A DNA stretch of 23,310 nucleotides from a virus, in IMG/VR virus record IMGVR_UViG_3300032223_000900, positions 1 through 23,310 of that record, one strand, 5' to 3'. The notes beneath the pieces were generated by a model. The model was not told the DNA's origin. It saw nothing but the letters and a program-made list of their open reading frames with translations, and ran no database searches. Shown here piece after piece: positions 552-23,310 of the stretch. Every line of letters begins with the position of its first letter. The stretch's first letter is position 1. Both the position numbers and the translations under genes were made by a program.

Positions 552-2936
552 CTAACTAACTGAGAAAGTTGCTGCAACATTAGTTTTTCTATCTAATGCC
601 TGTTGTGAAGTAATATCAGAACCAACTACATAAGCTCTAACAGGTTTTCCTGTGGTATTTGCTATTGTAGCTGCTAATTGAGTATTAGCTGATGCTTGTG
701 TATTACCCTGAATAGTAGGTGCTGTTGTAGTAGGTAATGTAGGTAAAGTAGGTTCAGCTACAGGTGCTGCACTACCACCAGCATTTGAAGATGCTATTGC
801 TGTTCCACTTGCCGGCGTACCACTATCAGCTGAATTAATTTGTTGAATTGCTTTAGCTCCTGCCGCAACTGCTCCAGCCACACCTAAGGCTCCACTTACA
901 GTGTTGATAGCCACCCAAGGCATACCAAATGTTAATGGAGAAGATGCCACTGCTTTAGCATTTGCTATACCAGTGTTTACAACTATCTTACCAATTGCTG
1001 CTGCTTGTTCTAATACAACCCCAGCGATAGCAATTTTCTTATTTTTACCTGCTAATTGTTGTAATAAAGAACCAAATCCAGCAACTATTTCCCATTCTGC
1101 ATTTGCAATCTGAGCTCTAGCTTCTTTTTCAGCCATTGCAATTGCAATTCTTTGTTTAGAAGCGTCTTGAGTAATCTTTGTTCTTTGTGCTTCGGTTAAA
1201 TTGGTTGCAGATAATTCAATTTTAGTTTTTTCATCCAATAATTGTAATTGTTTCTCATAAGTTACTCCAATTGCATCAGTTTGATTTTGTAAATCTAATA
1301 ATTGTTCATCAGTTTGTTCTTTAGCTAATGCTAATCTTTCATCACCAGCTTTAATTCTGATTTGTTGTCTTTGTGCTTCAGTTAATTGTTCATTACTTAA
1401 CTCTAATTGTTCTTTTTCGTTAATTAATGCTAATCTATCATCCCAATTATCTTTCTCATGCGTAGCTAATACATGCGCATTGTTATCTATTTCTAATATT
1501 CTATTATCAACTGCTTCTTTTTCTATCTTAGCTCTTTCAGCAATTGCATCAGTTTGTATTTTAGTTCTTTCTTTTTCAGTTAAATAAGCATTTGAAAGTA
1601 ATAATTGTTCCTTATCGTTTACAATTTGTATTCTCTTATCGTAAGCATCTTTAGATTTAACTTCTAATGTTTTAGCTTCTTGGTCTAATAATGCAACTCT
1701 ATCATCAATACCTTTTTGAGCTTCATCTTTTTTCTTCTTTAAATCTTCTTCTGCTTTCTTTTTAGCTGCTTCATCAAACTTGTCATTAATCTTTTTAATT
1801 TCATTTTGATATCCAAGTTCCAAATCCGTAAAATCTTTAATACCTGCTTTCTGAAGTATCTTTTTATCCTCATCGTGCTTTTGTTTTGCTTTTAATAATG
1901 CCGCTTCTCTTTCATCTAACTTTTGTAATGCAATCTCTGCTAATACTTTCTCAGCAGCTTCTGCATTCTTTTTAGCTTCCTCACCTCTTTTCTTAGCTGC
2001 TTCTTTTTCTTTTTCAGTCATTCTTTTAGAACCTTCATCAAAAGCATGTTCACCTGATTTAAATCCATGAGTTACAGCTCCTACTACACCTTTACCAATA
2101 TCAGTTCCAGCTTTTTTAGCATTATCTACAAATGAATTAAATCCAGTTGTGATTGCTGTACCGGCTTGAGTTACACCTTCTTTAATTAAACTTAAATCAA
2201 ATGTGAATACTCCTTTAAGTACTTTACCAGCTGCTCCTGCAATATTAATTAAAGTTTTAAATCCATTTACAACATTACCAACAATAAATTCAGTTAATCC
2301 TTTAGCTACTGCAAATACTGATTCAAATGTTGCTACCAATACACCCATTGTTACTGATAATGCATTCATTACATCTTTTGATTTCAACATTGCTGTAATG
2401 AAATCAGCAAACTTCATAGCAATTGGCTCAATAACAGCAAACAACGCATTCATTATTTTTTCAAATGCTTCTGTAATAGCTGCTAATTTCTTTTGTCCTT
2501 CCTCAGTTCTACTTAAACTTTCTTTAAATGCAAGGAATGCTGATACAATTAATGCAATTACACCTAATGCAACATAGATTGATTTACCAAATACTTCTAC
2601 AGACTCTTTCGCATCTTTAAGAGTTTTACCTACTAATCCAATTGGACCAGGCAATTCAGCTAATTTATCAGTTGTATTTTTAGCTTCAAACGCAACTTTC
2701 TTTTGTTGTATTTGTAATTCTTTTAAATGCTCTGATAATTTACGGAACTCGTCAGTATTATCTTTACCTTTATCAGCCAAAGATTGTAATTGGACTGTAG
2801 TTTCTCTAATTTGTCTTCTTAGTGACAAGAATTTCTTATCACCATCTTCAACAGTCTGATTTAATTCTTTAACTTGGTCTTCACCTTTTACTTGCGTATC
2901 TATAATCGCTGTATAGGTGGTAGTATTATCGGCCAT
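552..2936 (-). CDS. Tail tape measure protein, 794 aa
   Basis: This protein would span the tail tube lumen and set tail length. The N-terminal ~95 residues are charged and helical. Hydrophobic segments follow at about 118-137 and 195-240, then a long Lys/Glu/Ala-rich coiled coil at about 300-610, an Ala/Gly hydrophobic stretch at 635-700, a Pro/Thr-rich linker at 725-745, and a C-terminus with PVRAYVVGSDITSQQALDR at 765-783 of a type I recall from Bacteroidota phage tail proteins. Within the coiled coil are three degenerate repeats of about 62-66 residues (from about 435, 501 and 563), each with a core like LxLInEKxxLELSxxxLTEaqR. It is the second-longest gene, follows the baseplate genes and overlaps the small ORF before it by 11 bases. 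At about 1.5 Å per residue it would fit a tail near 120 nm, which is an estimate only. Confidence 0.9.
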   Translation of the reverse strand: MADNTTTYTAIIDTQVKGEDQVKELNQTVEDGDKKFLSLRRQIRETTVQLQSLADKGKDNTDEFRKLSEHLKELQIQQKKVAFEAKNTTDKLAELPGPIGLVGKTLKDAKESVEVFGKSIYVALGVIALIVSAFLAFKESLSRTEEGQKKLAAITEAFEKIMNALFAVIEPIAMKFADFITAMLKSKDVMNALSVTMGVLVATFESVFAVAKGLTEFIVGNVVNGFKTLINIAGAAGKVLKGVFTFDLSLIKEGVTQAGTAITTGFNSFVDNAKKAGTDIGKGVVGAVTHGFKSGEHAFDEGSKRMTEKEKEAAKKRGEEAKKNAEAAEKVLAEIALQKLDEREAALLKAKQKHDEDKKILQKAGIKDFTDLELGYQNEIKKINDKFDEAAKKKAEEDLKKKKDEAQKGIDDRVALLDQEAKTLEVKSKDAYDKRIQIVNDKEQLLLSNAYLTEKERTKIQTDAIAERAKIEKEAVDNRILEIDNNAHVLATHEKDNWDDRLALINEKEQLELSNEQLTEAQRQQIRIKAGDERLALAKEQTDEQLLDLQNQTDAIGVTYEKQLQLLDEKTKIELSATNLTEAQRTKITQDASKQRIAIAMAEKEARAQIANAEWEIVAGFGSLLQQLAGKNKKIAIAGVVLEQAAAIGKIVVNTGIANAKAVASSPLTFGMPWVAINTVSGALGVAGAVAAGAKAIQQINSADSGTPASGTAIASSNAGGSAAPVAEPTLPTLPTTTAPTIQGNTQASANTQLAATIANTTGKPVRAYVVGSDITSQQALDRKTNVAATFSVS

Positions 2937-3589: not shown

Positions 3590-5623
3590 TTATACGCAAT
3601 AAGGACAACGATATGGTGTGCCACCATTTACAATTCCTAATGTGTTTATTGACCAAATATCACAACTATTATCATTATCAATTAAATAATTGTATCCAAT
3701 AACAGGATTATTACCATAAGCATCAAAATATAATACAGCTGATGGTTCTAATACTCCAGTTGATGAGAATAATTCATATGGTCCTTGTTGATAAGAACAT
3801 GCAGTTAAAGGAGCTCCACTATAATAAGATAAATAATAGTTAGTTCCAATAGATGTTGCAATTGGTCCACCACTTTGTGCAGAACCGGATACACCTGTTC
3901 CATTTAAATAAATTAATGGAGATGATGAGAATGTAGTTTTAACATCAAAGTTTCCTTGCGAAAAGAAATTTTGTGTATCTACATAATATACTTTACCAAA
4001 TTCTCTATTAATTCCTTTATAAAATTGTTGAGATACATAATCATTATCTAATGTATCAGCAAAAGTTAAAGTATTAACAGCTAAGTTATTTGTAGGAGTT
4101 ACTGAAATTTTATCATTCAAATTAATATATTTGTTAAAATCCCATGTAGTTCCTTTATTATACCATGTATTAAATGGTTCAACAATAAACTCATTAATCT
4201 TTGTTTTAGATGGATATATTACTAAATTAAATTTCTTTTGAATAGCTGTAATAAATTCAATTTGTTTAATACCTCTAGTTCCATATGGTAAATTTCCACC
4301 AACATTCATCACAAATCCTTCACCAACATTACCAGCTTTAATAATTTCTAAATAAGAACTTAATTGTCCACCTTTATCTATTGTTAATTTAAAATTACTT
4401 CCACCATTATTATTGTAAGTTATTCCAAATTTATAACTACCTGATGGTAAATAATCAGTTGAACCTTGCTGAACTAATGTATATGTTTTAGTACCTGTTG
4501 CATTACCTTGCGATAAATTATATGCTCTAATTCCATTCATATAATCATTAAATGAAGTTAATGGTACTGAACTAATTACACTATTTGAATAACCATCTAA
4601 TACATCAAAATTAAATGTAGGTTCACCATATCCAGCTCCTGATTTACTTACTTCAAATTGTAATTGAAAATTATAAGTTAAACGAGATGGAAAATCTAAA
4701 TGATAAACTAAATCAGAATCAAAATTTCCGTAAGGATTACTTTGTATATTATTCCAAGGTAAAGATTTAGCAACACCAGCAGTTAATACTGTATCAGTAC
4801 TTCCACTAACCGGAGATATTTTACCTAAACCATATGCTTCCAAATCAATTGATTGAGATGGATTTTCAAATGAGCCTGAAAATATAGGATATCTTAATTG
4901 GTTATTAGCAACTAAATAAACAGTATCTAACCAGCTTTGTTGCCAAAATGAAGAACTATATGTAAATCCATATTGATTAAATATAGCATCCCATACATTT
5001 TTTATTTTAACTGCCGGCTTGTAATCTTGTACATATAATCCGCCTGATGGAGAATTAATTCCTAATAGGGGTTGGTCAGGCGTATATTGTAATTTTTGTC
5101 CATATTCACAAAAAGGATATACAACACTTCCACTAAATAATTGTAAATCCCAACTTGATGTAATATTATTAAATGAAGCTGTGTGATTTAAATAACTTAA
5201 TGAACTTGTCATATCAGTTAAGAAAGTTCTATTTGTTTCTCTTGCAAATGAAGATAAAGCTCCATAAATTGAAACTTCATAACTATCCACAAACTTATTT
5301 TGATAAAGATTAACTTTATTTAATTGAAGATAACCTTGAGAAAGATAAATACCACCATATGAAATATAGCAAGGAACTTTTATGTTTGTTGCAAAAAGAT
5401 ATGGATTAGCAACTGAAATATCATAAACATGCTCAAAGAAAGCATTGTTTTTTTTAGTACCAGGCAAAGTTAATTGCTTAGTATATTCAGCCGGCAATGT
5501 TCCCAAATCAAACAATTGAGTTGAGTTGTTAGATAGCGTTATAATTTCATCTTGATATAAATCTAAAATTTGTCCATTTGCTACTAACTGGTACTTTATT
5601 CCCTGTGTTGATATAACTCCCAT
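3590..5623 (-). CDS. Large tail-tip/baseplate protein, 677 aa
   Basis: The N-terminus contains ILDLYQDEIITLSNNS and then LPAEYTKQLTLPGTKKNN (about 45-62), a module I associate with baseplate or distal-tail proteins of Bacteroidota phages. The middle is beta-rich, with many Tyr, Asn, Ser and Gly residues. From about residue 584 the character changes to a short Cys-containing module: an ACSYQQGPYELFSS segment near 608, LYFDAYGNNPVIGYNYL near 632, and a terminal RCPYCV with a CPYC pair. This tail resembles small C-terminal modules that I recall in other structural proteins from Bacteroidota phages. The ATG at 5623 is preceded by TATAAT, and the upstream gene stops one base before it. A single long beta-rich protein just before the tape measure fits a baseplate hub or distal tail role, but no catalytic motif is visible. 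Confidence 0.68.
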   Translation of the reverse strand: MGVISTQGIKYQLVANGQILDLYQDEIITLSNNSTQLFDLGTLPAEYTKQLTLPGTKKNNAFFEHVYDISVANPYLFATNIKVPCYISYGGIYLSQGYLQLNKVNLYQNKFVDSYEVSIYGALSSFARETNRTFLTDMTSSLSYLNHTASFNNITSSWDLQLFSGSVVYPFCEYGQKLQYTPDQPLLGINSPSGGLYVQDYKPAVKIKNVWDAIFNQYGFTYSSSFWQQSWLDTVYLVANNQLRYPIFSGSFENPSQSIDLEAYGLGKISPVSGSTDTVLTAGVAKSLPWNNIQSNPYGNFDSDLVYHLDFPSRLTYNFQLQFEVSKSGAGYGEPTFNFDVLDGYSNSVISSVPLTSFNDYMNGIRAYNLSQGNATGTKTYTLVQQGSTDYLPSGSYKFGITYNNNGGSNFKLTIDKGGQLSSYLEIIKAGNVGEGFVMNVGGNLPYGTRGIKQIEFITAIQKKFNLVIYPSKTKINEFIVEPFNTWYNKGTTWDFNKYINLNDKISVTPTNNLAVNTLTFADTLDNDYVSQQFYKGINREFGKVYYVDTQNFFSQGNFDVKTTFSSSPLIYLNGTGVSGSAQSGGPIATSIGTNYYLSYYSGAPLTACSYQQGPYELFSSTGVLEPSAVLYFDAYGNNPVIGYNYLIDNDNSCDIWSINTLGIVNGGTPYRCPYCV

Positions 5624-5624
5624 A

Positions 5625-6803
5625 TTATATTATTAATTTGTATCCTTGTCCGTAATTAAAGTTAAAGCTGTATTGAATTAATTTATCTACAACATTAGTC
5701 TTAAACTGAACAGAATTGGTATCTATGGTGATAGGCGTTAGAATGTCACCACTTTCTGTAGTTACATAGTATATTTCATCACTTACCATTAATTGCTTCA
5801 GGATATCGTTATAATTCTCAGGAATCCAAAATGTATTTACTAACATTTGTTGGTTAGAATCTACTAAATAATTTAGATTTTGAGAATCATAATTGTTGTA
5901 TGATAATGTTGAACCATCCCAACTTCCAATTTGTGGCTGATAAGTTCTTTTAGTTGTTTTAAAAGTTTTCTTATTAACCATATAAAAGTTAAAGTAATCA
6001 AATTGTCCGTATCTATTTTTCCATTTAATTCTAACATTAGGATACTTTTGTAAACATGCAAATTCATATCTTAAAGGAGCTCCTAATGGTGTTAAAGAGT
6101 TATATGCTTGAATAGTGTACCATTGTACATTACCAGCAAAAGGAAAATCAGTTGATGTAGGGAAAGCTGGTACTTGCTGAATCTGACCTGATGTTGCTGA
6201 ACTACCACTTAAGTTAATTACTGCAGTTCCTAAATCAGATGTATATTTGATTGCTGTTGGTGTTGTTGTACCTACATTTTGTGTATAACATCCCACAGTA
6301 CCAAAGTTATCTGGAAAGAATGATTGCGTAGTAGGTCCATCAGTCATTAATGGCCAGAATGGAGATTTACTATATATCGGTCCATTAATTGCTTCTTGGA
6401 ATATAGCATATCCATCTAAAGCATTATATGTAGAAGATACTACATTTGAACCTGAAACATATGTTATTGTTCCAGTATCAATACTTTGAGAAGCCCATTG
6501 CCAATACGCAGTAGATTTAAAAAACTCTACATTTGATGGATTTGTTTGTCTTAAATCCGTTAAAGTAGAATTAATAATCTTAGATACATCAAAGATACCG
6601 ACATGAGATTGGTTAGGATATTTTACCAATGTATAGGTATTACCTGAACCAGATGCGTTTGCTGCACCATTCCAATAGTTTAAATTAAGAACATATTGAA
6701 AAGATGAGGAATATATTACACCACTACTTTCAGATACTGTAAACACAATTGGTGATTGTGCTAACGATGCTATTGCTGGTGTTTGAGTTATTGAAAGAGA
6801 CAT
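5625..6803 (-). CDS. Tail structural protein (distal tail-like), 392 aa
   Basis: A Ser/Thr/Asn/Tyr-rich, mostly beta protein with no membrane segment or enzymatic motif. The segment RIKWKNRYGQFDYFNFYM around residues 260-280 resembles a conserved W-x-N-x-x-G-x-[FD]-x-[YF] block that I associate with tail proteins of Bacteroidota phages. The N-terminus begins with short hydrophobic strands (SITQTPAIASLAQSPIVFTV), perhaps an Ig-like or distal-tail fold. It lies between the tail-completion genes and the large baseplate gene, with a one-base gap to the latter. Its start codon is buried in a perfect 10-bp inverted repeat that could restrict translation initiation. A distal tail or tail-tip adaptor is the best contextual guess; no homology search was possible. 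Confidence 0.6.
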   Translation of the reverse strand: MSLSITQTPAIASLAQSPIVFTVSESSGVIYSSSFQYVLNLNYWNGAANASGSGNTYTLVKYPNQSHVGIFDVSKIINSTLTDLRQTNPSNVEFFKSTAYWQWASQSIDTGTITYVSGSNVVSSTYNALDGYAIFQEAINGPIYSKSPFWPLMTDGPTTQSFFPDNFGTVGCYTQNVGTTTPTAIKYTSDLGTAVINLSGSSATSGQIQQVPAFPTSTDFPFAGNVQWYTIQAYNSLTPLGAPLRYEFACLQKYPNVRIKWKNRYGQFDYFNFYMVNKKTFKTTKRTYQPQIGSWDGSTLSYNNYDSQNLNYLVDSNQQMLVNTFWIPENYNDILKQLMVSDEIYYVTTESGDILTPITIDTNSVQFKTNVVDKLIQYSFNFNYGQGYKLII

Positions 6804-10050: not shown

Positions 10051-10599
10051 TTAGCTATTAGTACCGTAAACAATAGTTGGTTGATTCGTAGCAGAACCAA
10101 ATGGAGCTGCTGCTGAAGTTGAACCAGTGATAAAGTTTGCAGGTACAGGCTCCATACCAGTCAATGTGATAGAATAACCATAAAGGTCACCTAACGCAGC
10201 GCCAGCTTGAGAAGTTCCAGCAGTTACATCAGCACCCAATGTTTTACCTACTAAGAAAGAATCACCATTGTTTGTTACAACAACGATTTGTGGTCTTCCG
10301 TAAGATAATAATTTAAATTGAGTGTTCATATCTTGTGTTAATCTCTTAACATTCAATTTTAATTCTTGAGAGAAAAATGTTGTACCATTATCTCTTGATG
10401 TAGTTACAGTTTCAGTATAAGCACTATTACCTTTTAACTGATAGTAATATGCAGTACTAGCAGATGGGAAAGAAGTTATGTATCCATTAGCATCTGTTGC
10501 GAATGAACCAGTTGTGTAGTTGATGAAGTAAACTCCACTCAAACCACCAATACTATCTTTACAAACTTCATTTCTTCCTTGAGTTAAATTACAAGCCAT
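10051..10599 (-). CDS. Major tail (tube) protein candidate, 182 aa
   Basis: A beta-rich protein, no membrane segments. FFSQELKLNVKRL at 75-87 is followed by GRPQIVVVTNNGDSFLVG at 101-118 and GDLYGYSITLTGMEP at 137-151. The '...G.....G.alGDl.GYtltltg.E..p' ending resembles the tube or major tail proteins of Bacteroidota phages, as I recall. The gene is the last in the head unit, follows the major capsid gene, and is bracketed by a hairpin and a strong terminator; the same arrangement would suit a protein needed at high copy. Cys3 and Cys13 are the only cysteines. A head decoration protein is the main alternative. Confidence 0.65.
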   Translation of the reverse strand: MACNLTQGRNEVCKDSIGGLSGVYFINYTTGSFATDANGYITSFPSASTAYYYQLKGNSAYTETVTTSRDNGTTFFSQELKLNVKRLTQDMNTQFKLLSYGRPQIVVVTNNGDSFLVGKTLGADVTAGTSQAGAALGDLYGYSITLTGMEPVPANFITGSTSAAAPFGSATNQPTIVYGTNS

Positions 10600-16553: not shown

Positions 16554-19500
16554 TTATATGAATTTTTTAGCCGGTAGTAAATACACGTTATTAGAATCGT
16601 ATGCTACGAATGTTAATAAATCATATTGTCCACTACCAGATGTTGGTAAATAAGCTGAACCTGATATTTGTTTAACATTTGTTGAGAACGAAGCCGTTGG
16701 AATACCGGATGTTAATAATCTTAATGTTAATACTTCACCAGGTTGAGCATTTGTTATATTATATAAGTTTTGCCCTAATGCTAAACAACTATAAAAGTTT
16801 CCAGCATTAAAATCAATTGATGCAGTTGAGTTTGCTGAACCAGATACTAATGATGCTGATACCACATTACCTAACATTGAGCCAGTTATAATTAATGAAC
16901 CCGATATGATAGCTGAACCAGTATAAGGGAATGATGCTCCACCAGCTGATGATGTACCTGATGTACCATTAACGCCTGATGTTCCACTACTACCAGCTGC
17001 ACCAGTTCCACCATTTACACCAGAAGTTCCTGATGTACCCGATGTGCCACTGCTACCTGCAGCTCCATTGACACCGCTTGTTCCGTTTATACCTGAAGTT
17101 CCGTTTACACCCGATGTACCAGAAGTTCCTGATGTGTAAGCTGAACCGGATACAATATATAATGTATCAGGCTGAGTTGTTCCAGCTGCAAGTAATGCTC
17201 CATAAGAGCCACTATCCAATGTTACAATTTTATTAGCTGGATAAACATTTGTGTATGTATCTCCTAATGTACTAACTACTGATGCTGAATAACTTCCACT
17301 TGCTATAAAAATTGAACCAGTCACTCCCAATGAACCTGTAATTTGTGCAGAGCCTGTATAAGGGAATCCAACACCAACTCCAGTTCCACCATTTAATGTG
17401 ATAGAAGCAGTTCCACTATTGATTGTTAATGCTGCTACTGAGCTACCACTAAATTGTAAGTAAGTTGCAACGCCAGGTATATTTGTACTACCACTTGCGA
17501 ATCCTAATATAGATGTAACGCCTGATGTACCGCTACTACCAGAAGTTCCTGATGTACCACTTGTGCCGTTCACACCGCTTGTGCCTGAAGAGCCTGATGT
17601 GCCGCTTGTCCCGCTTGTACCAGAAGAGCCTGATGAGCCACTAACTCCAGAAGTTCCTGAAGTGCCACTTGTTCCTGATGAGCCATTAACTCCAGAAGTT
17701 CCTGAAGTACCGCTTGTTCCTGATGTGCCGCTTGTGCCACTACTTCCGCTTGTGCCAGAAGTTCCTGATGTGCCGCTTGTGCCACTACTGCCGCTTGTAC
17801 CATTCGTTCCCGATGTGCCACTAGTGCCTGATGTGCCGCTACTACCGCTTGTTCCAGAAGTACCCGAAGTTCCTGATGTTGAACCAACTGCTACACCCAC
17901 TTGCTTAGCCACTACCACTACTGATGGTGATGATGGATAATCCGGTGTTGATGAGTTAGCAGTTATTTGTACATTGGCGTTAGATGATTCAAATACAAAT
18001 TGTATGTAATCATTTGAAGCCATATATAATTGGATTGGATTGTTTGTTACAACAATAGAATCCGTTGTGTCCATATTCACATAAATTGCACTACCACTAA
18101 TATTTGTACCATTCTTTCTAGCCCAAATAATAGCTTGTGCAGATGCACCACCAGATGTTTTATCCATCTGAGCAGAGTATTGAAATTCATAATATCCAGC
18201 ATAACTTACCAATAATTTAGTTGAATCTAATATTGATATTGCGTTAGATAAAGATGATGAATTGAAAGACCATAATGTAGGTGTATTAACTCCACTAACA
18301 GGCTGAGTTGCGTTTGATAAGAACTCACCATAATAATTCATAATACCAGCTCCTCCTGTACCAGGTGCACCATTCGTTCCACTTACACCAGAAGTACCTG
18401 AGGTGCCATCAATACCTGATGTGCCGCTTGTGCCACGTGTACCACTCGTACCGCTTGTGCCACGTGTACCACTAGTCCCTGATGAACCATTTACGCCTGA
18501 AGTTCCATTTACGCCTGAAGTACCTGAAGTGCCATCAATAGCGCTTGTACCACCACTACCAGAAGTTCCAGATGTGCCACTACTTCCGCTTGTGCCGCTT
18601 GTTCCACTACTACCTGATGAGCCATTAACTCCACTAGTCCCTGATGAGCCTGATGTACCGGATGTGCCACTGCTACCACCACTTCCTGCAGTTCCATTCG
18701 TTCCCGATGTACCGCTTGTGCCACTGCTGCCTGATGTTCCTGAGGTGCCTGAAAAGCCTCCACTTCCAGCCGTACCATTTGTACCGCTTGTGCCTGAAGA
18801 CCCACTAGTGCCACTCGTTCCACTACTGCCTGAAGTTCCTGATGAGCCACCTGTACCATTTGTTCCGTTAATACCGGATGTACCATTTATTCCCGATGTG
18901 CCGTTTTGTCCTGATGTACCAGAAGAACCTGAAGTACCATCACCACCAGCAGCACCTGCTAAGTTTATTTTCCAATTATTATATGTTCCACTACCTACAA
19001 CCATTGTAATATTAGCAACCATTACACCAGTTGCTGGATTGTAAGAAGTTACTGAACCTTCCATATAGTTTGAACCATCATAAGCTATCAATACTGATTG
19101 AGCTACTGAATAGTTTAAGCCTATACCAATTGTTAAGGTTTGTGTTCCAGTTCCAATTGTTAAGGATGTAGAAGATGTAGATTGATATTGTGAACCATTT
19201 ACGCCTGATGTACCATCTTTACCTGATGTACCAGAAGTTCCTGAGCTACCACCACTTCCTGCAGTGCCATTAGTACCGCTTGTGCCCGATGTGCCGCCTG
19301 TTCCGTTTGTACCATTAATGCCTGATGTTCCTGAAGTTCCAGCCGAACCATTACTTCCATCATGTCCACTTGTACCGCTTGTGCCGCCTGTTCCATTTGT
19401 TCCGTTTATTCCTGAAGTGCCGGATGTACCAGCTGAACCATTACTACCATCTTTACCTGATGTACCAGAAGTTCCTGATGTGCCGGCTGAACCATTTGTT

Positions 19501-20465
19501 CCGTTTATTCCTGAAGTTCCTGATGAACCCCCACTACCATTTGTTCCGTTTATTCCTGAAGTTCCGTTTATACCTGAAGTTCCATTAACACCAGATGTGC
19601 CATTTACTCCAGAAGTTCCCGATGTACCATCTTTACCTGATGTACCACTAAATGTGCCATCTTTACCAGAAGTACCTGATGAGCCCGATGTACCATTAGC
19701 TCCTGTTGAACCATCATGTCCGCTTGTACCTGATGTACCTGCTAAGCCTGATGTTCCGTTAATTCCGTTTATGTTAAATGTAATCCAATATGAATCATTA
19801 CTATTAAGATAGCTATTTCCAGCTTCAAATGTTAAGCTTGATATATACAATACACCACCAGCATAGTTTGAGTTATTTACTTTATATAAACCAAACTTTG
19901 TATTATCGTTTATATTTGTAATTTGAATTTCGTATGACCCATTAATATTATCTAAATTAGCTAAATAAGAAAACAAATTAGAATAAGCTCCATTAGCTGT
20001 TAAATAGTTTACCCATATTGCTGATACATTACCAAACGTATTATCCGGCGTTGTAACATCAAATGCGTTAGCTGGAACTGATGGAGCAAACCCAGCTTTA
20101 TATTGCCATTGGTTTGTATTAGCTGGTATTACAGTTTTACCTGATGTACCATTTGTTCCACTCTGTCCATAAACGAATATAGATGCTGTACCATTATTTA
20201 ACGATACATTTACACTACCAGTAAAATTTAATGTTGTAGCAGTTCCTAAAATGCTTCCTGTTTGGGAAACTTTAACACCACTACCACTTGCTATCAATTG
20301 GTTTACTTCTGCTTGTATTGTATCTGCTTGAGATTGTAAAGCAAGCGAATCAATCATATCCTGATTAAAGTTTCTTAGAACTTCAGGCGTAATATATCCT
20401 ACATTATTATTAGGAAACGATTGTTGATTGTCTTGCGATAATTGCTGTTTATTGTAATTAGACAT
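16554..20465 (-). CDS. Collagen-like tail fibre with C1q/BclA-like domain, 1303 aa
   Basis: The N-terminus (1-232) has GYITPEVLRNFNQDMIDS at 23-40, the attachment pattern I associate with Bacteroidota phage fibres. Four blocks of Gly-X-Y triplets follow at about 233-424, 503-706, 861-982 and 1111-1172, dominated by GTS, GSS, GVN, GIN, GTN and GKD, almost without proline. Between blocks two and three lies a beta domain at 709-857 (YYEFQYSAQMD at 758-768, WARKNGTNISGSAIYV at 781-796, SNDYIQFVFES), close in pattern to C1q/TNF or BclA-like trimeric heads. Between blocks three and four is a second beta-rich segment (983-1110). The C-terminus has a phage-fibre style end with QYDLLTFVAYDSNNVYLLP. 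Such proteins form trimeric rods. Receptor specificity is not readable from sequence. The longest gene in the window. Confidence 0.82.
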   Translation of the reverse strand: MSNYNKQQLSQDNQQSFPNNNVGYITPEVLRNFNQDMIDSLALQSQADTIQAEVNQLIASGSGVKVSQTGSILGTATTLNFTGSVNVSLNNGTASIFVYGQSGTNGTSGKTVIPANTNQWQYKAGFAPSVPANAFDVTTPDNTFGNVSAIWVNYLTANGAYSNLFSYLANLDNINGSYEIQITNINDNTKFGLYKVNNSNYAGGVLYISSLTFEAGNSYLNSNDSYWITFNINGINGTSGLAGTSGTSGHDGSTGANGTSGSSGTSGKDGTFSGTSGKDGTSGTSGVNGTSGVNGTSGINGTSGINGTNGSGGSSGTSGINGTNGSAGTSGTSGTSGKDGSNGSAGTSGTSGINGTNGTGGTSGTSGHDGSNGSAGTSGTSGINGTNGTGGTSGTSGTNGTAGSGGSSGTSGTSGKDGTSGVNGSQYQSTSSTSLTIGTGTQTLTIGIGLNYSVAQSVLIAYDGSNYMEGSVTSYNPATGVMVANITMVVGSGTYNNWKINLAGAAGGDGTSGSSGTSGQNGTSGINGTSGINGTNGTGGSSGTSGSSGTSGTSGSSGTSGTNGTAGSGGFSGTSGTSGSSGTSGTSGTNGTAGSGGSSGTSGTSGSSGTSGVNGSSGSSGTSGTSGSSGTSGTSGSGGTSAIDGTSGTSGVNGTSGVNGSSGTSGTRGTSGTSGTRGTSGTSGIDGTSGTSGVSGTNGAPGTGGAGIMNYYGEFLSNATQPVSGVNTPTLWSFNSSSLSNAISILDSTKLLVSYAGYYEFQYSAQMDKTSGGASAQAIIWARKNGTNISGSAIYVNMDTTDSIVVTNNPIQLYMASNDYIQFVFESSNANVQITANSSTPDYPSSPSVVVVAKQVGVAVGSTSGTSGTSGTSGSSGTSGTSGTSGTNGTSGSSGTSGTSGTSGTSGSSGTSGTSGTSGTSGTSGVNGSSGTSGTSGTSGVSGSSGSSGTSGTSGTSGSSGTSGVNGTSGTSGTSGSSGTSGVTSILGFASGSTNIPGVATYLQFSGSSVAALTINSGTASITLNGGTGVGVGFPYTGSAQITGSLGVTGSIFIASGSYSASVVSTLGDTYTNVYPANKIVTLDSGSYGALLAAGTTQPDTLYIVSGSAYTSGTSGTSGVNGTSGINGTSGVNGAAGSSGTSGTSGTSGVNGGTGAAGSSGTSGVNGTSGTSSAGGASFPYTGSAIISGSLIITGSMLGNVVSASLVSGSANSTASIDFNAGNFYSCLALGQNLYNITNAQPGEVLTLRLLTSGIPTASFSTNVKQISGSAYLPTSGSGQYDLLTFVAYDSNNVYLLPAKKFI
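16950..17135 (-). repeat. Gly-X-Y block 4 of the fibre gene
   Basis: Encodes about 62 residues of Gly-triplets (GTS, GVN, GIN, GAA) just before the C-terminal fibre domain. Confidence 0.75.
17520..17885 (-). repeat. Gly-X-Y block 3 of the fibre gene
   Basis: Encodes 122 residues of GTS/GSS triplets with two VN and one VS variants, with no proline. The opposite strand carries a spurious VPxVP-repeat reading frame as a by-product of this triplet pattern. Confidence 0.8.
18348..18956 (-). repeat. Gly-X-Y block 2 of the fibre gene
   Basis: The longest block, about 203 residues, with GTN-GTA-GSG units repeated and a GTR-GTS-GTR-GTS patch. At DNA level two 23-base copies at 18424-18446 and 18451-18473 are identical, with a 27-base period. 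Confidence 0.8.
19194..19769 (-). repeat. Gly-X-Y block 1 of the fibre gene
   Basis: Encodes about 192 residues, with charged GKD and GHD triplets. It includes two 28-residue stretches (residues 340-367 and 370-397) that are identical in protein, with a 30-residue period, though their DNA differs at 18 of 84 bases. Confidence 0.82.
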
Positions 20466-20468
20466 ATA

Positions 20469-20717
20469 TTAAATTGGGTTTATTTGGAATCCATCACTGA
20501 AACCATCTGAGAAAGGTGCTAAGCCTGTAAAAGGATAAGATGTTTGTCCTACTCCTTGTGATACTAAAGCTCCTTCACAACAATCAGTTGAATAGGTATC
20601 TTCCTTAACACACAAACAAGCTCTTCTTGCATTATGTGGTACGTTTCTACCTCTTGTTGGACCGAAGTAAACTCCAGTCCATTTTCTCATATTTCGGGTT
20701 TGCGATGGTGTTGGCAT
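20469..20717 (-). CDS. Cys-motif structural protein candidate A, 82 aa
   Basis: Carries FGPTRGRNVPHN at 18-29, then ACLC at 33-36, TYSTDCC at 41-47, and SQGVG at 53-57. The pattern CxC-x9-CC-x5-SQGVG is shared with the gene beside it, so they are tandem paralogues. Four cysteines in CxC and CC pairs could bind a metal or form disulfides; neither can be proved here. The C-terminus is FSDGFSDGFQINP, with a short internal repeat. I recall related small Cys-rich proteins in marine phages, but know no function. The start is AATAATATG. It lies just upstream of the fibre start, which makes a fibre-base or neck role plausible. Confidence 0.65.
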   Translation of the reverse strand: MPTPSQTRNMRKWTGVYFGPTRGRNVPHNARRACLCVKEDTYSTDCCEGALVSQGVGQTSYPFTGLAPFSDGFSDGFQINPI

Positions 20718-20718
20718 A

Positions 20719-20943
20719 TTATTGTGTTGGTGGTTGAGTTTTATATACTAATCCAACTCCTTGTGACATCAAATGCTTACCACAACATTTAAAAGAATAA
20801 TAGTTTCGATTTAAACACAAGCATGCTGATTTAGCACCTCCTGTTCCACCTCTACCACCATCCTCTCCGTAATATGGAACACTTCTTCCCAATGTAGGAC
20901 CGGGCTTTTGTATCGGTGTTGCCACCACTCTAATTTTTCCCAT
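20719..20943 (-). CDS. Cys-motif structural protein candidate B, 74 aa
   Basis: The ATG at 20943 is preferred over a TTG 15 bases upstream, because every neighbour starts with ATG. The protein reads GPTLGRSVPYYG at 15-26, a Gly-rich insert, then ACLC at 40-43, YYSFKCC at 48-54 and SQGVG at 60-64. This is the same CxC-x9-CC-x5-SQGVG core as the 82-aa neighbour, with an extra Gly-rich loop of about nine residues before it. The two genes are separated by one base. Likely a partner of the same structure; the ten-residue start (KIRVVATPIQ) and basic character differ from candidate A. Function unknown. Confidence 0.65.
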   Translation of the reverse strand: MGKIRVVATPIQKPGPTLGRSVPYYGEDGGRGGTGGAKSACLCLNRNYYSFKCCGKHLMSQGVGLVYKTQPPTQ

Positions 20944-20957
20944 ATGGATTCTTTTCA

Positions 20958-20966
20958 ATTTAACAA
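20958..20966 (-). promoter_or_regulatory. TTGTTAAAT motif before the Cys-motif genes
   Basis: The minus strand reads AGTTGTTAAATTGAAAAGAA about 15 bases before the ATG at 20943. One of six intergenic copies. Confidence 0.4.
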
Positions 20967-20981
20967 CTAAGGAAACAAAAG

Positions 20982-21269
20982 TTACATTTGAACTCGGTTA
21001 GTTGCGTTCTCATATAATAACTTTTCCAATTCTGCTCTATCAGCATCGTAAGCTAATTTAAGTAAACACGTTTCTAATGGTAGAGCTGTTATCTCATCTA
21101 TTCGAGTTATATCTCCATTTGCCAATTGTACTAAGGAAGCGTAGGATTTCCACTTCTTTCCAAAATTGATTTCAGCTTGTGTGGAACTAGCTCCGGTGAA
21201 GTCTGCATCAAAGAGCTCAGGGTAGAATGCCACAAGTCCTTTGACAAATTCACAAAAAAAAACAAACAA
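20982..21269 (-). CDS. -1-frame continuation of the 208-codon gene (frameshift product tail)
   Basis: This frame has no ATG before its last residue and begins with a TTG in the nominal reading, so independent initiation is unlikely. Its coding part probably begins at the slip site, at base 21254, and reads CEFVKGLVAFYPELFDADF then FGKKWKSYASLVQLANGDIT and LETCLLKLAYDADRAELEKLL. The 'LANGDI..iDE...lp....LL.LAY..d' pattern resembles small phage tail proteins that I recall, and the reading looks like a genuine folded domain. With the first 168 residues of the 208-codon gene it would give a 258-residue fusion. A single base missing from a 9-base T run is the sequencing-error alternative. Comparable layouts occur in G/GT-type tail chaperones. 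Confidence 0.6.
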   Translation of the reverse strand: MFVFFCEFVKGLVAFYPELFDADFTGASSTQAEINFGKKWKSYASLVQLANGDITRIDEITALPLETCLLKLAYDADRAELEKLLYENATNRVQM

Positions 21270-21757
21270 CCGAAGTGTACATCCATTGTTACATCTAAAA
21301 ACAGTTCTGAGTCTATTAACCCTTCATATGGTATAATATCGTATAACTTACCATATCGTTTAATAATAGGTCTGTATAGTATTGACATTACTTCAGCCCA
21401 CTTATCATTTATCTCTAACTTATCGTACTTTGATATATCCACATAAGCACCATATGCCATTTGTGATAGATTTGGTTCAAAGCCGTATTTTACACCATCT
21501 ATATCAATCTCTCTTTGTATTGGATAGTTTGTGTTTTGTAAGAATGAATACAGCTTCTCTTTAATAGCTGTATATGTTTCTACATCTAAATCCTTTAACA
21601 TCCTCACATCGAATTTAGCTAAGTGATGGAATAGTGTAGCTGTTATAGCTTCATCATCTCCTTCATAGTTTTGTAAATCGTTTGATAATCGGATGTATTC
21701 TCTTAGGGTTACTGCTGACCAATCGTTTGGTACTTTTATTTCTATTTCTCTTTTCAT
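21131..21757 (-). CDS. Frameshift upstream gene, tail-chaperone-like, 208 aa
   Basis: Starts MKREIEIKVPNDWSAVTLREY, then a largely helical protein, with GVKYGFEPNLSQMAYGAYVDI around 88-108 and GCLFFFVNLSKDLWHST at 163-179. Residues 166-168 are the Phe codons TTT TTT TTT. After that the -1 frame overlaps for 139 bases while this frame continues to a stop at 21131. The N-terminal pattern (N-D-W-S-x-V-T-L-x-x-Y) resembles phage tail-assembly chaperones. It sits just after the methyltransferase and far upstream of the tape measure, unlike the usual chaperone position next to it. The start follows GATAAT. Function remains inferred. Confidence 0.7.
   Translation of the reverse strand: MKREIEIKVPNDWSAVTLREYIRLSNDLQNYEGDDEAITATLFHHLAKFDVRMLKDLDVETYTAIKEKLYSFLQNTNYPIQREIDIDGVKYGFEPNLSQMAYGAYVDISKYDKLEINDKWAEVMSILYRPIIKRYGKLYDIIPYEGLIDSELFLDVTMDVHFGCLFFFVNLSKDLWHSTLSSLMQTSPELVPHKLKSILERSGNPTLP
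21254..21260 (-). other. Slippery heptamer T-TTT-TTT for -1 frameshifting
   Basis: On the coding strand the 0-frame reads TTG TTT TTT TTT GTG. The last seven bases before GTG form an in-frame T_TTT_TTT, a canonical -1 slip sequence, within a nine-base T run at 21254-21262. Slipping by one base gives TGT GAA and enters the open -1 frame. A downstream stem or pseudoknot cannot be assigned by eye. Confidence 0.6.
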
Positions 21758-21758
21758 A

Positions 21759-22427
21759 TTATCTTATTCTCCATGCTTTTTGAAAATGTGTTTCTACTCC
21801 ATCGCCGGCTGTATATACTTCATCGTGCGTATTAGATATCCAATGGAAAAGCTTATCTTGCTTATCCTTTCCTAAGAAATTATGGAACTCACCTGTAATC
21901 CATTTAATCTTACTTAAGTCCTTCATATAAAGGAAATCAAACTCTGCACCTTCTATATCTACCTTAAGTAATCCAACACTCTCTATTCCCTTTAAAATCG
22001 ATTCTAAGGATATTGTAGTTACTTCTTCATACTCCTCACTATTCCATCCATTGTTATTTAAATGGTTTACATAATCAGTAATCCCATAATTGCCTGAATT
22101 GGTATCATCGTTTCTTTCATGCACCATATACTTTCTCAGCTTCACAATTTCTCCATCAGTACTCCATAAGGCTTTGTGTAGGGTTGGGTGATGGTGATGT
22201 GATTGGTATTGCTCTATGTTATAAGATGAAGCATCAATAGCTAAGAAGTTATTAAACTTATGCTTAAACGCTTCAGCAAATCCACCTACGTTACAGCCGG
22301 CATCTATTACTAATTCGTTTGATTCTATATCCATTCTACCTATTGGATACTCTTGCTTACATTCCAAAGTTATTCTATCGAACCAATTCTCTGGCTGATT
22401 GGCTGATGTTAGTTTATCTACTTTCAT
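21759..22427 (-). CDS. FkbM-family SAM-dependent methyltransferase, 222 aa
   Basis: Carries a class I SAM-binding motif VIDAGCNVGGF at 40-50, an acidic second motif AIDAS at 63-67 and the FkbM signature SLESIL (140-145) with LLKVDIEGAEFDFL (153-166), the 'lK.DvEGaE..l' block. Enzymes of this family usually O-methylate sugars or small molecules. A His run (QSHHHHPT, about 75-82) precedes the central helices. It stands between a TerL-adjacent small gene and a tail-chaperone-like gene, with one- or two-base gaps, so it is co-transcribed with virion genes. Possible substrates are a virion glycan or a host surface sugar; neither is shown. No glycosyltransferase is in view. Confidence 0.75.
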   Translation of the reverse strand: MKVDKLTSANQPENWFDRITLECKQEYPIGRMDIESNELVIDAGCNVGGFAEAFKHKFNNFLAIDASSYNIEQYQSHHHHPTLHKALWSTDGEIVKLRKYMVHERNDDTNSGNYGITDYVNHLNNNGWNSEEYEEVTTISLESILKGIESVGLLKVDIEGAEFDFLYMKDLSKIKWITGEFHNFLGKDKQDKLFHWISNTHDEVYTAGDGVETHFQKAWRIR

Positions 22428-22708: not shown

Positions 22709-23310
22709 TTATCTTACTGAAATTATATATTTTCCTGTTGTAGCAGCCTTTTGTGATAATCGCATCATCCCTACATATCGAGCTGCATCTATTAAATGGT
22801 TATTGAAATCTATTGGTTTATCTAATTGCTTTCCAAATCTATCCGTGCTCCACTCATACGAATAAAACTCATTGGTTAGGTTTTGGCAACTCTTAGGGAT
22901 GAATATCTTATGGTTCTGCAATATACCAATACCAAAGTTAATACTATCCTTTCCTTTGATTACAGGCCTTATGTTAAATCCCATACGATATAATTCTTCA
23001 ATCAAACGTGGTTCAGCACTATCAGCCCATATCTCCTCTCTACCTTTAACTAATTGTTTTAACGCATCTGCTATATCCGTTGTCACCATTCCTCTTTCGT
23101 AACAATGCTCTACGATGTATAGCTCATTTCCATTTTGCTTAAACAAACTTACAATAGCTGTTGGGTCATTACTAAATCCAAAATCTATTCCATATCCTAC
23201 AAACTCTGCCGTATCAGGTATCCATTCAACCGGCGTAAATTCAAAGATGGCTTTATCATTGTTTACATACTCACCCAATCCATAAACCTTCCATGCTTTT
23301 TGATTAGTAA
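22709..23310 (-). CDS. Terminase large subunit, C-terminal nuclease part (cut by window edge)
   Basis: The frame is open to the window end, so the gene starts outside; the TTG at 23278 is only an apparent start. The visible 199 residues read NQKAWKVYGLGEYVNN, then GYGIDFGFSNDPTAIVSLF at 38-56, EEIWADSAEPRLIEEL at 91-106, GFNIRPVIKGKDSINFGI at 110-127, and PIDFNNHLIDAARYVG at 165-180. These are the conserved acidic residues of the TerL RNase H-like nuclease (Asp42, Asp96 and Asp174), which cuts concatemeric DNA during packaging. The ATPase half is beyond the edge. A small terminase, if present, would be further upstream. Confidence 0.88.
   Translation of the reverse strand, partial: TNQKAWKVYGLGEYVNNDKAIFEFTPVEWIPDTAEFVGYGIDFGFSNDPTAIVSLFKQNGNELYIVEHCYERGMVTTDIADALKQLVKGREEIWADSAEPRLIEELYRMGFNIRPVIKGKDSINFGIGILQNHKIFIPKSCQNLTNEFYSYEWSTDRFGKQLDKPIDFNNHLIDAARYVGMMRLSQKAATTGKYIISVR

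Follow-up and report, generated by a model that had tools for sequence, protein, structure and literature searches.

A run of nine or ten T and two overlapping C-termini conserved in a phage gene family: a candidate tail-chaperone pair possibly produced by transcriptional slippage

We analyzed a stretch of viral DNA of 23,310 nt (hereafter the window) containing a gene whose two reading frames are almost certainly connected by a conserved, programmed frame transition, with two products that both appear to be under selection. Comparison of homologs establishes the frame relation itself, the run of nine or ten T (T9/T10) at which the frames meet, and coding constraint on the two alternative C-terminal tails. 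In our best explanation of the whole, to which we assign a probability of roughly 0.58, RNA polymerase would slip on this run and the two products would resemble the G/GT proteins of phage tail assembly. The features of the locus are collected in Table 1. The long product, a fusion through the -1 frame, is 258 aa long, and it has 168 residues in common with the short product of 208 aa. A first-pass annotation of the window had drawn attention to this gene for its nine-T run with an in-frame T_TTT_TTT, for a -1 frame that stays open after the run without a usable ATG, and for two products of these lengths. On re-reading the window, the coordinates of the run and both ORFs proved to be correct, and the sole ATG of the -1 frame is its last codon.

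Table 1. Features of the slip locus and of the neighboring terminase gene in the 23,310-nt window.
Feature	Positions	Strand	Details
0-frame ORF, 208 aa	21131..21757	-	ATG at 21757; residues 1-168 common to both products, followed by a 40-residue 0-frame tail; stop at 21131
T9 slip run (TTT TTT TTT in the 0 frame)	21254..21262	-	Codons 166-168; T_TTT_TTT in frame
-1 frame segment (T-like domain, 92 residues from the run to the stop)	20982..21260	-	Stop at 20982; made solely as a fusion with the N-terminal domain; helical model, motifs
Dual-coded stretch, 0-frame tail over -1 domain	21131..21253	-	Open frame and reduced synonymous change
Terminase large subunit, C-terminal part	22709..23278	-	PF17288 E=7.6e-20; phrog_5653 E=6.7e-40

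The second domain was found in the -1 frame behind an unbroken run of nine or ten T in all 162 homologous loci (141 distinct sequences, with identities as low as 24%), which include those of the cultured Nonlabens phages P12024S and P12024L. No run of 7, 8 or 11 T was present at the junction in any of these loci. The first-pass annotation had named two arrangements that would speak against a programmed shift, one continuous gene or a second gene started by its own ATG, and neither occurs among the 162 family loci; the T run and both frames are instead kept throughout. By this comparison, the recurrence of the -1 relation together with T9/T10 is far above chance. An initial scan of viral contigs yielded 8 loci, and two profile scans yielded at least 410 and at least 578 confirmed relatives. 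In phage records, tblastn of the fusion matched only the Nonlabens phages, whose homologs show 22-24% identity, and relatives in further cultured phages were reached only by fold search and profile comparison. No prophage copies were detected in the contigs of one genome each for 84,980 bacterial and archaeal species. Finally, the annotation of P12024S lists two hypothetical proteins, P12024S_38 and P12024S_39, that in fact correspond to both frames of a single T9 slip gene (L163, 23136-23830).

Profile comparison connected this family to proteins that are encoded without any frame transition. The profile of the -1 fusion matched the phrog_25418 proteins from end to end (probability 96.5%, E=7.4e-10, 225 columns); single sequences of this set gave much weaker scores than the profile. 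These proteins of 259-301 aa are encoded by a continuous ORF in phages of Flavobacterium, Cellulophaga and Polaribacter and in a Microcystis phage. They are collinear with the -1 fusion, but unlike the slip family they have no frameshift, and T runs near the matching place do not exceed six. In our reading, the long product came first and the run added a short one to it. Alternatively, it is possible that the run was lost in the single-ORF lineages. Flavobacterium phage 6H was considered as a frameshifted member and rejected: its 191-aa ORF (L164, 10352-10927) is a broken copy of the 293-aa protein of its relatives 2A and laban6-1. Because the copies of these two phages form one continuous ORF, the break in 6H is ascribed to mutation or sequencing error and not to programming.

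Both frames are conserved after the run. Across 56 representative homologs, the 0 frame remains open for 36-58 codons past the run (mean of 48). When the -1 protein was held fixed and synonymous codons were redrawn, the simulated 0 frame stayed open for only about 5 codons (median), whereas the same simulation predicted the closure of the +1 frame as it is observed in these representatives, within 0-14 codons. Synonymous change was also approximately 1.5- to 3-fold lower in the overlap. At four-fold sites, values for the overlap, the N-terminal part and the -1 domain past the 0-frame stop were 0.066, 0.210 and 0.224 for pairs of sequences 85-97% identical, 0.185, 0.386 and 0.382 for pairs 75-85% identical, and 0.320, 0.476 and 0.540 for pairs 60-75% identical. 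Since the 0 frame is kept open and synonymous change is reduced in the overlap, the short product's own tail is selected, which goes beyond what the mere rescue of a broken gene would predict. Such a dual-coded stretch of 25-58 codons is missed by gene finders. The arrangement differs in this respect from lambda, in which gene G ends soon after its slip site.

We then considered which property of the T run is maintained. The runs fall into three classes according to their codon phase. Among the 141 distinct sequences, 82 have phase-0 runs, and all 82 consist of T9 with a codon 1 that does not end in T and a codon 4 that is TTT. The 57 phase-1 runs all have a codon 1 ending in T and a codon 4 that is TTC, TTA, TTG or TAT, never TTT; the remaining two runs are in phase 2. 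Neither pattern is the product of plain codon bias, because Phe codons upstream of the run are TTT in 65% of cases and TTC in 35%. On a FastTree tree, the run class changed at least 9 times (7 times when phase 0 was set against the rest), and at least four of these changes are forced by well-supported branches, while the length remained at 9-10 throughout. In one locus (L020), the run is even displaced three codons further on. Run length, rather than codon phase or exact position, is by this comparison the conserved property. The protein does not impose the extra T, because single-ORF relatives read FF, YF or YT at the matching place, and not FFF.

Long runs are scarce in the remaining genes of these phages. 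In 409 other genes, we observed 4 runs of eight or more A where codon shuffles led us to expect 60, and 2 runs of eight or more T where 7 were expected. This scarcity of A/T runs of at least eight suggests that host or phage polymerase slips at that length, although replication slippage can also be its cause. A further long run was seen in one phage only (L144, 9680-9692), where a tail-terminator-like gene contains T10 close to the place at which its homolog in the window stops. The ORF continues for more than 100 codons beyond this run, which is possibly a second slip site.

These observations lead us to favor RNA-polymerase slippage over ribosomal slippage as the probable source of the frame transition. 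The DNA as written would give the 208-aa product with its 40-residue 0-frame tail. RNA polymerase would realign on the nine T (U in the mRNA) so that a fraction of the transcripts gains one extra U, and these mRNAs would lead into the -1 frame and to the 258-aa product with its helical domain of about 90 residues. Transcripts with one U lost or two gained would meet an early stop, because the +1 frame closes so soon after the run. In this scheme, the two products would most likely help to assemble the tail tube and the tape measure, with chaperone roles comparable to those of lambda gpG and gpGT. We infer the identity of the slipping machine as a polymerase, as well as the product ratio and the tail-chaperone role. 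It is well established that RNA polymerase can slip on tracts of nine A or T in bacteria (PMC1088944, PMC5009743). A tract of about nine or more A/T maintained by its length is what such slippage calls for; here, T9/T10 occurs in all three phases.

The main alternative is a classical -1 ribosomal frameshift, in which two Phe-tRNAs slip back by one base on T_TTT_TTT, as in lambda gpG/gpGT. Tail-chaperone pairs have been described as using ribosomal -1 slippage (PMC5009743), and the run contains an in-frame T_TTT_TTT, which conforms to the heptamer X_XXY_YYZ of such frameshifts, in 162 of 162 loci. Moreover, phase-0 sites carry exactly nine T, the shortest phase-0 run able to contain T_TTT_TTT in frame. 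Ribosomal slippage, alone or jointly with the polymerase, is therefore possible everywhere in the family. However, phase-1 and phase-2 runs possess 9-10 T when 8 and 7 would be needed, and known heptamers with fewer T are never used alone: phase-0 T8 sites with T_TTT_TTA, T_TTT_TTG or T_TTT_TTC were not found in the family, even though phase-1 members accept Leu at this position. U_UUU_UUU is also a weak site: in E. coli it belongs to the heptamers that induce shifting less readily (PMC5009743). Stimulatory structures or upstream elements are common, although not universal, at -1 ribosomal sites, and we detected neither here. RNA folding beside the run was not unusual (mean z of +0.3 to +0.5 downstream and -0.2 upstream), no consensus RNA structure of note was found beside the run across all 56 representatives, and synonymous constraint was not found upstream of the run. 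Polymerase slippage is favored because the length of 9-10 is constant while the phase changed approximately 7-9 times, and because neither an RNA structure nor an upstream element was detected, U_UUU_UUU is weak, and runs of eight or more are avoided elsewhere. A ribosomal shift is a serious possibility, but we consider it the less probable of the two. The programmed -1 frameshift proposed in the first-pass annotation thus stands as a conserved -1 transition with short and long products, whereas a slip of the ribosome fits less well than RNA polymerase with a length that is maintained in any phase.

Regarding function, a G/GT-like role in tail assembly is rather probable in view of sub-threshold family matches, fold matches and the architecture of the gene. 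The best Pfam match of the N-terminal domain is Phage_TAC_7 (PF10109; residues 23-73, E=0.0032), with a score in the window protein of 17.9 against a cut-off of 25, i.e., below membership. Of 56 members, 23 gave sub-threshold matches to this family. Structures were predicted for two separate chains, the short product and the -1 domain. The AlphaFold model of the short product was confident (mean pLDDT of 87, pTM of 0.78), with a 0-frame tail that is partly helical and poorly resolved, and the model of the -1 domain was helical (mean pLDDT of 85). The invariant motifs of this domain are YPE, F..KW..Y and PL. A fold search against viral proteins returned 36 entries at E <= 0.001, nearly all of them unnamed, as well as one whose annotation reads 'tail assembly chaperone protein' (E=6e-3, probability of 0.99, TM of 0.40). 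The search of solved structures gave no match. As in G/GT pairs, sequence comparison indicates two products with a common N-terminus related by a frame transition. The likeness to G/GT put forward in the first-pass annotation therefore holds for the two lengths and their common N-terminus, and the chaperone identity is likely.

The two lengths could instead belong to another kind of morphogenesis factor, such as a neck or connector protein, which would be compatible with either slip mechanism. The slip gene comes after the gene of the terminase large subunit (TerL), in Ingeline_1 the single-ORF relative closely follows the adaptor gene and precedes the tape measure by three genes, and no known tail chaperone matches significantly in sequence. 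The repeated weak Phage_TAC_7 matches in the helical N-terminal part, the similarity in fold to a protein annotated as a tail chaperone, the two-length architecture and the position of the homolog that opens the tail block in a Nonlabens phage all argue against this interpretation, which we regard as possible but less probable than a tail chaperone.

The position of the gene differs from that of G/GT pairs, which are flanked by the gene for the major tail protein on one side and by that for the tape measure on the other. The tape-measure-like gene of the window (552-2936) is 18 kb away from the slip gene, as had been noted at first pass, and in 12 relatives of 30-35 kb the contig coordinates place the tape measure approximately 10-22 kb away, some of these genomes being apparently cut elsewhere. 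All 130 loci that extend far enough upstream of the slip gene show a TerL match there, which is within 1 kb in 112 of them. The gene had been described as next to the terminase, which agrees with this general order but is not literally true of the window, where the two genes are 952 bp apart, with a methyltransferase-like gene and an ORF of 84 aa in this interval. In the Nonlabens phage, the order is TerL, slip gene, small gene, neck-like gene, homologs of the window genes at 5625-6803 and 3590-5623, and tape-measure-like gene. The unusual position is partly explained because the homolog of P12024S follows TerL yet opens the tail-gene block, 6.4 kb before the tape-measure-like gene; in the window's lineage, head and fibre-like genes lie between the slip gene and the tail genes.

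Several other genes of the window deserve mention; those given here with coordinates are on the minus strand. The methyltransferase (21759-22427; FkbM-like by eye; phrog_8156) is probably a local insertion, because a relative was found in only 12 related loci. Directly behind the slip gene are two ORFs of 82 and 79 aa (20469-20958) with a motif of approximately ACLCL....Y...CC...L..QG(V/I)G. Their relatives occupy the same place in 141 and 125 loci, respectively, although both queries may match one gene. They are followed by a 1303-aa collagen-like protein composed mostly of GTSGTSG repeats (16554-20465), then by two LamG-like proteins and one glycine-rich protein; all of these probably serve as fibres or in receptor binding. 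A 182-aa protein (10051-10599), whose gene is flanked by those for capsid and portal, is tail-tube-like by eye. If it is the tail tube, then tail tube and tape measure are far apart in the window's lineage.

Two further explanations dispense with a programmed transition. Bacteroidota often lack Shine-Dalgarno sequences, and the weak start of a separate gene for the second domain could escape direct view near the run. Such a gene is very unlikely: 52 of 56 representative homologs lack any -1 frame ATG in the interval between 12 codons ahead of the run and 30 codons past it, the alignment with single-ORF relatives passes over the junction into the -1 domain without a break, and the conserved T run would be purposeless. 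Homopolymer runs are error-prone and hypermutable and other phages encode the related protein in a single continuous ORF, but a sequencing or assembly error, a recent frameshift mutation in a continuous gene or phase variation at the DNA level is scarcely credible when every locus, including two from cultured phages, presents the same relation, the fused state was never seen and the 0-frame tail is under selection.

Our results raise the prospect, still tentative and a little short of even odds, of an abundant phage lineage that makes a tail-chaperone-type pair by RNA-polymerase slippage, with overlapping conserved C-termini and an ancestral continuous protein that was split. Our search of the open-access literature turned up no tail chaperone gene for which transcriptional slippage has been reported. 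If polymerase slippage sets the product ratio, it would constitute a second, independent route to the G/GT ratio in tail assembly, tied to RNA polymerase instead of tRNA and ribosome. The family is large and offers a clean test, because run length, phase and position vary naturally among its members. The comparison also provides hints on function for two 'hypothetical' genes of Nonlabens phages that were annotated apart.

Three known systems resemble this gene in part. Like lambda gpG/gpGT, it belongs to tailed dsDNA phages and combines a -1 transition with a common N-terminus and a longer form that carries an extra domain. Unlike the lambda pair, it is far from the tape measure and near the terminase, its short form possesses a conserved tail of 25-58 residues overlapping the -1 domain, its T9/T10 run is maintained by length, and sequence similarity between the two is not significant. 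The gpE/E' pair of phage P2, a member of Phage_TAC_7, is likewise a tail chaperone in two lengths, but P2 uses a single heptamer (T_TTT_TTG), in contrast to the run of 9-10 T observed here. Finally, the genes known for slippage on A9 or T9 (Thermus dnaX, Shigella mxiE and spa13, and IS transposases) also contain a homopolymer of about nine A/T inside the coding sequence, which is avoided elsewhere and gives access to an alternative C-terminus. The present gene differs from them in that it belongs to a phage, is of the virion-assembly type and encodes two conserved tails that overlap; its slippage is predicted from sequence.
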